Source of the DNA: Hydrogenophaga flava NBRC 102514
GTDB lineage: Bacteria; Pseudomonadota; Gammaproteobacteria; Burkholderiales; Burkholderiaceae_C
Reading direction: 5' to 3'
NCBI RefSeq assembly: GCF_001571145.1
Contig: NZ_BCTF01000015.1
Span: 1 to 64,000, forward strand
DNA: 64,000 nucleotides
Shown: positions 36,917-40,802 of the stretch, in pieces
Layout of the letters: each line of letters starts with the position of its first letter
Numbering within the stretch: the stretch's first letter is position 1
Position numbers and translations under genes: made by a program
The notes under the pieces: generated by a model
Seen by the model: only the letters and a program-made list of their open reading frames with translations
Database searches by the model: none
Told to the model about the DNA's origin: nothing

Positions 36917-38227
36917 TCATTCGAGGGACTTGAGCTTGCGGTAGAGCGAGCGTTCGCTGATGCCCAGCTTGGCCGCCAGCGCGGCGCGGTTGCCCCGGTG
37001 CTCGGCGACGATGGCGCGCAGCGTCTCGCGGCCGGCGGCCCGCACCGTGTCGCCGGCCGTGGCCGGTGCCGATGGCCCGGTCGTAGCACGGCCCGGCCGC
37101 CGGCCGGTGGCGATGGCCTCCTCGACATGCGCCGCCTCGATCAGCTCGCCGTCGCACAGCAGGGCGGTGCGCTCCAGCAGGTTGCGCAGCTCGCGCACGT
37201 TGCCGGGGAAGGGTTGGGCCTCCAGCAGGTGCATGGCGGCGGGCGCGAGGCGCAGGCGGCGCGGGGCCGCCACCCGCTCCAGCAGCGCCTCGGCCAGCAG
37301 GGCCAGGTCGCCCGCGCGCTCGCGCAGCGGCGGCAGAGGAATCGGGAAGGTCGAGAGCCGGTAGTACAGGTCTTCTCGGAAGCGCCCCTCGGCCATCATT
37401 CGATCGAGGTCGCGGTGGGTGGCCGAGATCACGCGGATGTCGGCGTGCCGCGGCTCGGTGCTGCCCACGCGCCGGTACATGCCGGTCTCCAGCAGGCGCA
37501 GCAGCTTGACCTGCATGGCCAGCGGGATGTCGCCCACCTCGTCGAGGAACAGCGTGCCGCCGCTGGCCGCCTCGACCAGGCCGCCCTTGGCGGTGGCCGC
37601 GCCGGTGAAGGCGCCGCGCTCGTGACCGAACAGCTCGGATTCGAACAGCGTCTCGGGCAGGCTGGAGCAGTCCACCGGCACCAGCGGCTTGCTGGCGCGC
37701 GGGCTGGCCTCGTGGATGGCGCGCGCCACCAGTTCCTTGCCGGTGCCCGACTCGCCCAGCAGCAGCACGGTGGCCGGTGCCGGCGCCACCCGCGCCACCA
37801 GGCCGAGCATGCGCTGAAAGGCGGGCGAGCGGCCGATCAGGCCCTGCGCCGCCGGCTGGCCCTGGGCCACCCGCAGCGGCTCCATCTTCTCCACGTAGAA
37901 GGCCGGCTGCCCGTCCGCGCCCGGCAGGGGCGAGAGCTCGATGTTCACATACTCCTCGCCGCGGCGCGTGTGGTGCAGGTGCAGCACGCGTTCGCGCTGG
38001 CCCGAGATCCGGGATTGCGCCAGCGGGCAGGACTCGCCGGCCTGGTCGCAGGGCACGGCGAAATGGTGCGAGACCTCGTAGCAGTGCCGGCCGACCACGC
38101 TGCGCTCGGGGCTGAATTGGCGCCGGTAGGCGGCGTTGGCCGCCAGGATGCGGTACTGCGCGTCGAACAGGATGTGCGGCTCGGGCAGGCCTTCGAGGAA
38201 GGCGGTGAGTTCGGGCAGGGGTTTCAT
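36917..38227 (-). CDS. FisR-like sigma-54-dependent sulfane-sulfur regulator
   Basis: A 436-residue bacterial enhancer-binding protein: PAS-like sensor domain (1-115), AAA+ domain with GESGTGKE and GAFTGA (sigma-54 contact), and a Fis-type helix-turn-helix at the C-terminus ([26 protein letters not shown]). The sensor domain has three cysteines, Cys49, Cys60 and Cys67. Their spacing (11 and 7) is the same as the C53/C64/C71 triad of FisR, which senses polysulfide and activates sqr-pdo genes in Cupriavidus. It is divergent from the ETHE1-like gene. The ATG at 38227 is chosen; upstream frame has no domain content. Confidence 0.85.
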
Positions 38228-38260
38228 GGGGGTACCCGCTGGGGGCGGTCGTGTCCGACA

Positions 38261-38284
38261 TTGTCTGCCAGATCTGGCAGTCAA
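38261..38284. promoter_or_regulatory. Palindromic activator site candidate between fisR-like and ETHE1-like genes
   Basis: A perfect 16-bp palindrome CTGCCAGATCTGGCAG (38265-38280) extends, after one mismatched pair, by TTG/CAA on each side. Its centre is about 98 bases upstream of the sigma-54-like element at 38356, a normal distance for an enhancer-binding protein. Confidence 0.6.
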
Positions 38285-38355
38285 AGCGGTGCCGGCGGCC
38301 CTCGCGGTGTCGTGCAAGTGCTTGTGGCCACAGGTTTTTGCCGGCCGGGCCAGGC

Positions 38356-38371
38356 TGGCATGGAACTTGGA
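38356..38371 (+). promoter_or_regulatory. Candidate sigma-54 promoter of the ETHE1-like gene
   Basis: TGGCATGGAACTTGGA has the -24 GG at the right 12-base distance from the -12 position, but the -12 dinucleotide is GG instead of GC. The ATG lies about 20 bases past the expected start site. The location beside a sigma-54 activator supports it. Confidence 0.45.
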
Positions 38372-38402
38372 AAGGTCCGTGCTCCGGACGACCCGACCCC
38401 CG

Positions 38403-39032
38403 ATGACCTTGCGCATCCTCTACGACGAACACAGCGGCGCACTGAGCTACCTGCTGGCCGACGAAGCGGCGCACGAAGCCGCCCTGGTCGACCCGCGCAG
38501 CGGCGACTGGCCGGTGCTGATGGCCCTGCTGGACGAGGCCGGCCTGCGCCTGCGCTGGGTGTTGCGCACCCACGAGCACGACGGCCACGACGACCAGCCG
38601 CCCGGCGAATTCGGGCGCCTGCTGTGCCTGGGGGCACCTTTGGTGCAGGGTGCCCGGCGCGAGGGCGTGCGCAGCGTGGCCGACGGCGGGCGGTTGCCGC
38701 TGGGTGCGGGTTTCGTGCAGGTGCTGCACACGCCGGGACACACCGCCCACTGCCAGAGCTACCTCTGGCAGGACCGCGTGTTCTGCGGCGACCTGCTGAC
38801 CGCCGACGCCTGCCCGTGGCAGCCCCGGCCGGCCCTGCCGGCGGCGCTGTGGGACAGCGTGCAGCAGCGCATCTTCACCCTGCCCGACGAGACCCTGCTG
38901 TTCGCAGGCCACGAGCGCCGGGCGCGGGCGGTGACCACGGTGCTGGAGCAGCGGCGCTGGAGCCCCCACTTCGCCGGTCTCACCCGCGACGGGTTTCTGG
39001 CGCACCTGGGTGCGCTCGCGTGGCCGCGCTGA
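38403..39032 (+). CDS. ETHE1/persulfide dioxygenase-like metallo-beta-lactamase fold protein
   Basis: A 209-residue protein whose C-terminal half aligns by eye with ETHE1 (DSVQQRIFTLPDETLLFAGHE). Likely metal ligands His57, His113 (HTPGHT) and Asp130 (GDLLT) are kept. The canonical HxHxDH is HEHDGH here (57-62), with Gly at the usual Asp61, and the ETHE1 glutathione-site motif CGRTDFQ is replaced by ACPWQPRP. It may be an inactive or differently specific paralogue. It is 175 bases from the FisR-like gene, which probably controls it, and converges on the SulP gene. Glyoxalase II is a less likely alternative. Confidence 0.75.
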   Translation: MTLRILYDEHSGALSYLLADEAAHEAALVDPRSGDWPVLMALLDEAGLRLRWVLRTHEHDGHDDQPPGEFGRLLCLGAPLVQGARREGVRSVADGGRLPLGAGFVQVLHTPGHTAHCQSYLWQDRVFCGDLLTADACPWQPRPALPAALWDSVQQRIFTLPDETLLFAGHERRARAVTTVLEQRRWSPHFAGLTRDGFLAHLGALAWPR

Positions 39033-39053
39033 CGCCGGCCGGGGCGCCTGGGC

Positions 39054-40802
39054 TCAGATCTGCGCCGCGGGGTCCTGCGCCGGCTCGTCCAGCGCGCTGA
39101 TGGCCTGGTGGTGGGTGAGGAACACCTGCCCCGAGAGCCGCTCCAGGAAGTCGCTGCGGTGCAGGCGGTCCATCACCGGCCCCTTCACCTCGCTCAGGTG
39201 CAGCTGCACGCCGGCGTCCTGCAGGTTGCGGTGGATGCTGCGCAGGCTCTCCAGCGCGCTGGCGTCGATGTCGTTCACCGCGGTGCACTGCAGCACCACG
39301 TGGCGCACGCCGGGGTGGGCGGCCAGCTCGGCGGTGATGCGGTCTTCCAGGTGGCGCGCGTTGGCAAAGAACAGGCTCTCGTCCACCCGCAGGCCCAGGA
39401 TGTGCGGGCGCGTCACCACCTGGTGGCGCAGCACATTGCGGTAGTGCTCGGTGCCGGGCACGTTGCCCACCACGGCGATGTGCGGGCGGCTGCTGCGCCA
39501 GATGTGCAGCGCCAGCGAGGCGATCACGCCGACGGTCAGGCCGGTGACCAGGTCGACCAGCAGCGTGACGGAGAAGGTCAGGGCCTGGGCCGCGAAGTCG
39601 GCGCGCGCGTAGCGCCAGTTCAGCGGGAAGCTGCGGAAGTCGATCAGCGAGCCCAGCGAGATCAGGATGGTCGCGGCCAGTACGGCCATGGGCAGGTCGT
39701 GCAGCCAGGGCGTGAGGAACAGGGCCGTGAAGGCCAGCAGCACCGCGGTGATGATGCCGGCCGCGGGGGTGCGGCCACCGCTCTCGGCCACCACCGAGGT
39801 GCGCGAGAAGCTCGCACCGACCGCGAAGGCACCGGTCAGGCCGGCCGCCAGGTTGGCGCCACCCATGGCCCGCATCTCGGCGTTCACGTCGATGCGCTCG
39901 CGCCGTCTGGCGGCCATGCCCTGGGCGATGGAGATCTGTTCGATGAAGGTCATCACCGCGATCAGCAGGGCCGGCACCATCAGCGCCCGCACGGTGGCGG
40001 ACGGCAGCTCCAGCAGTGGCGCCAGCACCAGGCTGGGCAGGCCCTGCGGAATGTCGCCCACCACCGCCAGCCCCTGCTGCGGCCAGCCCAGGGCGGTGGT
40101 CAGCGCGATGGACAGCAGGATCACCAGCAGCGGCGAGGCCTTGCCCGCCAGGTCCGCCGCCACCGCCGGCACGCCGACGCCGCGCAGCAGCGGCTTGAGC
40201 CAGCGCCGGGCCGCCCACAGCGCCGCCAGCGCGCCCAGGCCCACGGCCAGGGTGAGGCCATGGACCTCGCCGAAATGGGCGGCCAGGCTGCGGGCAAAGC
40301 TGGGCACATCGTCGCCGCTCAGGGGCATGCCCAGCACGTGCTTGATCTGACTCATGCCGATCAGCAGGCCCGAGGCGGTGATGAAGCCCGAGAGCACCGG
40401 CTGGCTCAGGAAGCTGGCCATGAAGCCCATGCGCAGCGCGCCCATCACCAGCAGCGCCACGCCCACCATCACCGCCAGCACCGCGCTCGCGGCGATGAAG
40501 TCGGCCCCGCCGGCGCTCACCACCGTGCCCACCGTCGCGAACGACATGATCGAGCGCAGCGCCGAGGGGCCGGGGCCGAGCACCGTGCTGCTGCCCATGA
40601 GCGCGTAGACGACCATGGGCACGATGCTGGCGTACAGCCCGGTGACCGGCGGCATGCCGGCCAGCATGGCGTAGGCCAGGCTCTGCGGGATCAGCAGCAG
40701 CGTGACGACGGCTGAGGCCGTCAGGTCGGCGGCCAGCAGCGGGCGGTCGTAGGTCCGGCCCCAGCGGAGGATGGGGAACCAGTCGGTCAGGGGCAGGCGC
40801 AT
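39054..40802 (-). CDS. SulP-family anion transporter with STAS domain
   Basis: A 582-residue inner-membrane transporter (SLC26/SulP). The N-terminal membrane domain shows the family opening AADLTASAVVTLLLIPQSLAYAMLAGMPPVTGLYASIVPMVVYALMGSS, followed by about 12 hydrophobic segments; a cytoplasmic STAS domain covers roughly 440-560 (HIEDRITAELAAHPGVRHVVLQCTAVNDIDASALESLRSI). Substrates in the family include sulfate, bicarbonate and dicarboxylates. The neighbouring sulfane-sulfur genes make sulfur anions attractive but unproven. The start is ATG 40802; ATG 40835 would add 11 residues and cannot be excluded. Confidence 0.9.
   Translation of the reverse strand: MRLPLTDWFPILRWGRTYDRPLLAADLTASAVVTLLLIPQSLAYAMLAGMPPVTGLYASIVPMVVYALMGSSTVLGPGPSALRSIMSFATVGTVVSAGGADFIAASAVLAVMVGVALLVMGALRMGFMASFLSQPVLSGFITASGLLIGMSQIKHVLGMPLSGDDVPSFARSLAAHFGEVHGLTLAVGLGALAALWAARRWLKPLLRGVGVPAVAADLAGKASPLLVILLSIALTTALGWPQQGLAVVGDIPQGLPSLVLAPLLELPSATVRALMVPALLIAVMTFIEQISIAQGMAARRRERIDVNAEMRAMGGANLAAGLTGAFAVGASFSRTSVVAESGGRTPAAGIITAVLLAFTALFLTPWLHDLPMAVLAATILISLGSLIDFRSFPLNWRYARADFAAQALTFSVTLLVDLVTGLTVGVIASLALHIWRSSRPHIAVVGNVPGTEHYRNVLRHQVVTRPHILGLRVDESLFFANARHLEDRITAELAAHPGVRHVVLQCTAVNDIDASALESLRSIHRNLQDAGVQLHLSEVKGPVMDRLHRSDFLERLSGQVFLTHHQAISALDEPAQDPAAQI

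Follow-up and report, generated by a model that had tools for sequence, protein, structure and literature searches.

A FisR-like regulator facing an altered ETHE1-like gene in Hydrogenophaga flava: a candidate sulfane-sulfur response unit

Which genes would a regulator of the FisR kind control where an altered relative of persulfide dioxygenase (PDO), and no pdo-sqr operon, lies opposite it? The FisR of Cupriavidus pinatubonensis JMP134 was reportedly the subject of work by Li et al. in 2017. In the available parts of the literature (PMC9495516, PMC9774590), FisR is the switch for sqr and pdo, the genes of sulfide-quinone reductase (SQR) and PDO. The question is raised here by a locus in a 64,000-nucleotide stretch of DNA from Hydrogenophaga flava NBRC 102514 (contig NZ_BCTF01000015.1, positions 1 to 64,000; hereafter the window), which lies on contig C15 of a 5.15-Mb genome in 82 contigs. 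A gene for a FisR-like activator, here called fisR, is divergent in it from a gene for an ETHE1-like protein, and a gene for a SulP transporter follows. Based on the comparative evidence collected in this study, we consider it an evenly balanced proposition that the locus forms a sulfane-sulfur response unit of the FisR type, whose targets would be the altered ETHE1-like protein and a product of an extra ccoG copy (CcoG2). The features of the locus are as follows.

36917..38227, minus strand: FisR-like sigma-54-dependent activator, 436 amino acids, with PAS_4 sensor, AAA+ domain (GESGTGKE, GAFTGA) and HTH_8
38081..38083, minus strand: codon of Cys49, the equivalent of FisR Cys53 (counted from the protein; kept in 103 of 103 sensors)
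38048..38050, minus strand: codon of Cys60, the equivalent of FisR Cys64 (counted from the protein; kept in 103 of 103)
38027..38029, minus strand: codon of Cys67, the third cysteine (counted from the protein; kept in 103 of 103), its FisR equivalent being what we take to be Cys71, the number given in a preliminary description of the locus
38265..38280, no strand: operator palindrome CTGCCAGATCTGGCAG, probable FisR site; sole exact copy in the genome, of a type that precedes fisR at 60 of 81 loci
38356..38370, plus strand: sigma-54-type promoter TGGCATGGAACTTGG, directed at the ETHE1-like gene, with GG at -24 and GG replacing GC at -12
38403..39032, plus strand: ETHE1-like metallo-beta-lactamase-fold protein, 209 amino acids, in a clade apart from canonical PDOs
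39054..40802, minus strand: SulP anion transporter with STAS domain, 582 amino acids; convergent neighbour, probably no FisR target

Regulator, operator and promoter

The domain search of the regulator returned PAS_4, Sigma54_activat, an AAA lid and HTH_8, and with GESGTGKE at residue 158 and GAFTGA at residue 205 the protein has the make-up of a sigma-54 AAA+ activator with a Fis-type helix-turn-helix (HTH). Cys49, Cys60 and Cys67 are present as the preliminary description had read them, with the spacings of 11 and 7 residues known from FisR. Similar-looking cysteine motifs occur in other PAS domains. None of 103 FisR-like sensors, down to 33% overall identity, lacks any of the three cysteines, so that the conservation among relatives by which the preliminary description had proposed to judge its reading holds throughout. 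The 103 comprise 80 named loci (the best 80 of 276 sensor-profile matches; 81 when the window is added), 22 further ones (20 stretches and the matches from C. metallidurans CH34 and Pseudoalteromonas) and the window. Loci were recruited by a sensor-domain profile and two search patterns, and because one pattern included the first cysteine, the conservation of that residue is biased; the other two cysteines were in neither pattern. In FisR, Cys53 and Cys64 form a tetrasulfide according to the accessible part of PMC9495516.

The genes that related regulators face point in the same direction. The FisR of C. metallidurans CH34 (L222), 53% identical to the window's and sharing 59 of 120 sensor residues with it, is divergent from pdo and a sqr-type gene; the regulator of a further locus (L209), with the triad present, likewise faces pdo and a sqr-type gene. 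Five related regulators with the same triad face type I sqr, and one from Pseudoalteromonas faces cydAB-cydX-ybgE. Judged by its domains, its cysteine triad and its relatives facing pdo-sqr or sqr, the regulator belongs to the FisR kind, in agreement with the original assignment. We retain the name FisR-like because its own divergent target is an altered PDO relative and SQR matches are lacking on C15. Sulfane sulfur would be the signal, by analogy with FisR and to go by the sulfur-related neighbours. The sensor domain shares 98% identity with the one in H. pseudoflava NBRC 102511 (L089). In the fisR tree, whose labels rest on earlier gene calls and not on the tblastn counts given below, the window groups with L089 and L091 (support 99 in the Shimodaira-Hasegawa-like approximate likelihood ratio test, SH-aLRT), and L090, bearing a long operon, is the sister lineage of this clade. 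Orthologues of the protein designated P0002 (at least 53% identity) occur in 20 of 67 genomes of the genus.

The ETHE1-type gene (ATG at 38403), the palindrome and the sigma-54-like element were all located in the divergent arrangement that had been described. The palindrome has the form TGCCA-N4-TGGCA. In the 120 bp preceding fisR, 60 of the 81 loci have a copy with at most one mismatch and 33 an exact one, compared with none for the reversed pattern and with Markov controls averaging 1.1 (maximum 5) at that tolerance and 0.05 for exact sites. Tandem copies occur, most commonly spaced by 19-20 bp (18 pairs, at most two mismatches) or 9 bp (11 pairs), and the fisR region of C. metallidurans CH34 carries a one-mismatch operator together with a -24/-12 element. 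The palindrome is a probable FisR binding site on this comparison.

Sigma-54 promoters have the consensus TGGCACG-N4-TTGCW. At 66 of the 81 loci, the 420 bp on the divergent side contain the element TGGCAY-N5-TTG (reversed control, 0). The sigma-54-like element first noted in the window thus gains from its conservation, and its -24 half TGGCAT and its spacing fit, but its -12 half is TTGG and not the consensus TTGC. A C at this position is present in four more distant, cydA-linked loci (L210, L211, L213, L214). The operator-promoter distance, determined for 67 pairs, is 96-103 bp in 45 of them and 118-121 bp in 10. An alignment of fisR upstream regions has operator and promoter intact in the window, and by comparison across the loci, operator, promoter and ETHE1-like target appear to belong together.

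Companions of fisR in relatives

Companion genes around fisR were counted by tblastn, the gene-caller count (43 of 80) for the metallo-beta-lactamase (MBL) family of the ETHE1-like protein being too low. This family is represented at 63 of the 80 named loci, and at 53 of the 62 loci where the upstream side of fisR covers 8 kb or more, followed by Rieske-like (44), globin (38), ccoG (33) and cydA (32) genes. No other companion counted around fisR is as frequent as the ETHE1-like gene, so that the window's pairing is one of many. Of the minimal response with a different output that had been proposed originally, the different output is retained, whereas a peculiar minimal system is not supported. 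As the first gene in the divergent direction, cydA stands at 29 of the 80 loci, a Rieske gene at 21 and the ETHE1-like gene at 15. Families named in the neighbourhoods include cytochrome bd I and II, YbgE, Rieske, bacterial globin, FCSD and FixG_C/Fer4_18 (CcoG), and an octaheme cytochrome of the tetrathionate-reductase family (588 bits; cut-off, 375). The operon SQR-like protein matches Pyr_redox_2, has sulfide-quinone reductases as its nearest PDB entries and scores below the NCBIfam cut-offs. Cytochrome bd, Rieske-like and globin genes, frequent in relatives, are absent from the window locus. An SQR-type, FCSD or PDO gene is present at 39 of 80 loci, or 49 when rhodanese is counted, both being raw counts without a background rate; a gene called DsrE by eye, which would have raised the latter number to 52, has no Pfam match and was excluded. 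At L145, L152, L154 and L168, fisR is preceded on its own strand by genes called as rhodanese and Crp-type HTH, and at L140, where Pfam was checked, by the latter without rhodanese.

The same neighbourhoods could be understood as the cytochrome bd stress response to a different respiratory poison, such as nitric oxide, cyanide, carbon monoxide (CO) or oxygen limitation. The main companions after MBL, namely Rieske-like protein, globin, ccoG, cydAB and YbgE, and the cydAB-cydX-ybgE operon opposite the Pseudoalteromonas relative would suit such a signal, and cytochrome bd is described in the accessible portions of the respective papers as also conferring resistance to nitric oxide and cyanide (PMC8657789) and as the product of an operon giving CO tolerance in C. 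necator (PMC10164946). The same cysteine triad, however, occurs where the neighbours are pdo-sqr or sqr, the sulfur genes at 39 of the 80 loci would be left aside, and the bd oxidase of E. coli is reported to be unaffected by H2S (PMC8657789, in the part available). We consider a signal of this type unlikely.

The ETHE1-like protein and its SulP neighbour

The 209-residue protein matches Lactamase_B (29 bits; cut-off, 22.7). In a sequence comparison with solved structures, it comes closest to 9rhq, listed as a metallo-beta-lactamase family protein, and to the ETHE1/PDO proteins 4ysb and 8zbd. An AlphaFold2 model built from 46 aligned sequences (mean predicted local distance difference test score, 89) has ETHE1 of Myxococcus xanthus (4ysb) as its top Foldseek match in the PDB, with a template modelling (TM) score of 0.85, so that an ETHE1 fold is predicted. 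Residues were compared between 48 members of the ETHE1-like family and 17 PDO relatives, in a numbering that coincides between the window's protein and AcPDO. His57, His59 and His113 are invariant in both groups (48/48; 17/17), and Cys137 nearly so (48/48; 16/17). The Asp-His pair of the HxHxDH motif is found in 0/48 family members as compared to 17/17 PDOs (Asp alone in 5, His alone in 3; the window has Gly followed by His), Arg139 in 2/48 compared to 17/17, Asp141 in 0/48 compared to 17/17, and Tyr at 172 (AcPDO Y173) in 0/48 compared to 16/17. The two groups also differ in three further residues of the family: Asp at residue 60 (all 48; Ala in the 17 PDOs), Cys at 128 (47/48; Thr in 17/17) and Gln140 (48/48; 0/17). 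At residue 130, where all 17 PDOs have Asp, the family has Gly in 42, Asp in 3, Cys in 2 and Ala in 1.

In AcPDO, according to the accessible text of PMC6060420, H57, H113 and D130 are the iron ligands, D61A and H62A are inactive, and 0.4% of activity is kept by R139A, 1.5% by D141A, 6.6% by H59A and 39% by T128A. The residues of the glutathione (GSH) site and its hydrogen bonds (D61, H62, R139, D141 and Y173 of AcPDO) are thus not those of the ETHE1-like family, which also stands apart from the PDOs in the tree (SH-aLRT 94; 99 without L190). To go by these residues, the ETHE1-like protein is probably no normal persulfide dioxygenase, and the target, first described simply as ETHE1-type, is doubtful as a working PDO because residues whose loss nearly abolishes AcPDO activity are absent. 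The GHD insertion and Asp130 of the window's protein may represent an ancestral state. In one genome (G002), two divergent ETHE1-like copies are found, one belonging to a long operon on a contig that has no fisR and one beside fisR and SulP (L056, L058). L190, from the same class and another order, has the gene order cydB, YbgE-like (by eye), ETHE1-like, with THQHRAVGN and FCGD in the product; this arrangement suggests that a linkage of altered ETHE1-like gene and cytochrome bd may extend beyond the taxonomic order of the window.

In a plain extension of the known FisR-PDO system, the protein would be a working dioxygenase converting glutathione persulfide to sulfite, and SulP would move sulfite or sulfate. 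The proposal draws on the predicted fold, on the complete iron triad (His57, His113, Asp130) that the proteins of the window and of L089 keep, unlike most of the family, and on the SulP genes found in same-strand runs with pdo (L158, L162, L166) and with a sqr-type gene (L162), which fit a role in sulfur-anion transport. It must contend with the missing Asp-His pair and substrate residues together with the mutant activities of AcPDO, with the retention of Asp130 in only 3 of the 48 family members, and with a canonical PDO-rhodanese fusion (THAHADH, GCGRTDFQ; rhodanese part by eye) already encoded elsewhere in the genome. We regard it as rather improbable.

The SulP protein itself has Sulfate_transp and STAS domains above cut-off (TIGR00815, 391.7; cut-off, 380.45), and its gene ends 21 bases past the ETHE1-like gene on the opposite strand, convergent as had been described. 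Its inclusion in the sulfane-sulfur unit is not supported: an operator with at most one mismatch was not found near it, and it faces a LysR-type gene (by eye), so that SulP is rejected as a FisR target for now. Beyond it, at 40917-45644, lie the LysR-type gene, a FAD oxidoreductase, a membrane/Fe-S protein and a Bug-type binding protein, by eye similar to tricarballylate/citrate uptake; on the other side of the locus, 28654-36830 holds, by eye, a gene for a very large alpha-2-macroglobulin-like protein and, after it, one for a protein like penicillin-binding protein 1C.

A likely second target and the proposed response

The absence of sqr nearby is borne out, as SQR-like matches lie on contigs C16, C24 and C3 and none on C15. 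A true type I SQR is encoded elsewhere in the genome (1e-162 to 3sz0). At the sqr on C16, 2 operator matches compare with 2.05 expected, which is nothing above chance. The operon-type cydA was not found in the window genome, in a search without a positive control in that genome, and the operon SQR-like protein has only matches of at most 27% there. Exact TGGCACG-N4-TTG sites number 13 in the genome (controls, 1 and 3), and one of them lies 54 bp before an extra ccoG copy at C9:107357-108784 of genome G000 (L230, L237, L267), the product of which has FixG_C and Fer4_18 domains. CcoG2 (at least 79% identity) is present in 7 of 12 FisR-bearing and 0 of 29 FisR-free Hydrogenophaga genomes among the 41 searched (Fisher p 3.5e-5, or 2.1e-4 without G030, whose match is partial; both uncorrected for relatedness and genome completeness). 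A sigma-54 element stands upstream of 5 of 6 CcoG2 loci compared to 0 of 24 common-type ccoG loci. In two CcoG2 loci an operator with at most one mismatch is placed 88-89 bp above that element, and in the sixth (L270), where ccoG2 lies behind a Rieske-domain gene, tandem operators of one mismatch each are placed 99 and 108 bp before TGGCATATTTTTTGG, the Rieske gene having operators and a promoter of its own. Further ccoG paralogues exist at about 57% identity. Taken together, these comparisons make the extra ccoG copy a likely second FisR target, in trans. The different output first proposed stands but is probably not the sole one, with ccoG2 as a likely target in trans and with the true SQR and the PDO-rhodanese fusion also encoded in trans. 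By eye, the extra ccoG adjoins groES/groEL-like genes.

Several observations weigh against the reading of the locus as a FisR-type unit with an altered target and CcoG2. In the 66 promoter elements, the base at the -12 C position is A in 36, G in 18, T in 12 and C in none; the window's operator-promoter distance of 90 bp (38266 to 38356) lies outside the main band. Genome-wide, the exact palindrome CTGCCAGATCTGGCAG has a single copy, and a tolerance of one mismatch yields 36 sites, compared to 33 in the control, so that the search for it elsewhere, proposed with the first description, gave no second exact copy and the palindrome is rejected as a genome-wide regulon marker. It is found at 0 of the 5 FisRs facing type I sqr (at most one mismatch), and the window genome's own ccoG2 has operator half-sites only and no proper palindrome. 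Outside the genus, 34 of 34 ccoG genes in the neighbourhood of fisR resemble the common type (L243) more closely than CcoG2; they are rejected as its origin and lend no support to CcoG2 as an old regulon member. In Acinetobacter baumannii, the FisR cysteines are reported, in the accessible part of PMC7315123, as not conserved, and yet that FisR is needed for the sulfide response. The complete iron triad kept by the window's protein counts on the same side. The ETHE1-like match is absent from the stretches of two FisR-bearing relatives (L091, L092). In comparison with G054 (L039), the ETHE1-like protein is 90.6% identical, FisR 97.5% and SulP 97.4%; its faster divergence is therefore probably a sign of weaker constraint. 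In the 20-kb stretch of L091 (H. pseudoflava CZa25-1), fisR directly adjoins the SulP end, which suggests other fisR targets there.

That the unit is a decaying relic, its local operon lost and its ETHE1-like gene drifting with little function, could be argued from the long operon of sister lineage L090, from the close kin L091 and from the lower MBL identity, but it is the least probable of the explanations, given the intact operator and promoter, the open reading frame, the residues H57, H59, H113, C137 and Q140 kept in 48/48, and the promoter retained by ccoG2.

In the FisR-type response proposed here, persulfides or polysulfide would cross-link Cys49, Cys60 and Cys67 in the PAS domain, and the AAA+ domain, thus released, would open the promoter. 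Respiration and thiols would then be adapted to sulfide or polysulfide by the gene products; in relatives these would be cytochrome bd, Rieske-like protein, globin, SQR-like and octaheme proteins, and in the window's lineage the ETHE1-like protein and CcoG2. The ETHE1-like protein would not oxidise glutathione persulfide as PDOs do; as a guess from its residues, it might bind or relay persulfide sulfur through the His57/His59/His113 pocket, the near-invariant Cys128 and Cys137, ordinary persulfide oxidation falling to the PDO-rhodanese fusion. More tentatively than the unit as such, a PDO rebuilt as a non-oxygenase persulfide handler (three histidines and Cys128) might be the core FisR output in Comamonadaceae and relatives, acting with a dedicated CcoG, and with cytochrome bd where present, in the protection or rebuilding of copper/heme respiration during polysulfide stress.

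Lastly, the conserved operator and promoter lead to the prediction that, in many Comamonadaceae and their relatives, a sensor of the FisR kind controls genes of respiration together with an uncharacterised protein derived from PDO. The analysis offers a testable link between sulfane-sulfur sensing and remodelling of the respiratory chain, a consensus operator with which regulons could be predicted, and a naturally occurring example of a dioxygenase fold that appears to lose its chemistry while its regulation is kept. A description of the ETHE1-like/FisR pairing or of the ccoG2 link was not found in a limited search of the literature, in the parts available.

The closest known systems resemble the locus in part. 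The cydAB-linked regulator of Pseudoalteromonas xiamenensis (L223) shares the cysteine triad, 45% identity and the divergent arrangement, but its target is cytochrome bd, and an annotated ETHE1/MBL gene is not among the 13 features shown. With the ETHE1/PDO proteins (M. xanthus 4ysb, human ETHE1 4chl, AcPDO), the ETHE1-like family has in common the fold, the length, His57/His59/His113 and, in the window, Asp130; it differs in lacking the Asp-His pair, the RTD loop and the GSH-binding Tyr, in the replacement of Thr128 by Cys and, in most relatives, in the loss of Asp130. The FisR operon of A. baumannii (pdo1, sqr, tauE; PMC7315123, as far as accessible) likewise has a sigma-54 activator divergent from sulfide-detoxification genes, and the cysteines reported there as not conserved are present in the window's regulator. 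With the FisR of C. pinatubonensis JMP134, as far as the available sources describe it, the window shares PAS, sigma-54 AAA+ and Fis HTH domains, three cysteines and a divergent target; it departs from that system in having no pdo-sqr operon, an altered ETHE1-like target and, likely, a second target in ccoG2. The nearest sequence found to this known Cupriavidus system is that of C. metallidurans CH34 (L222).

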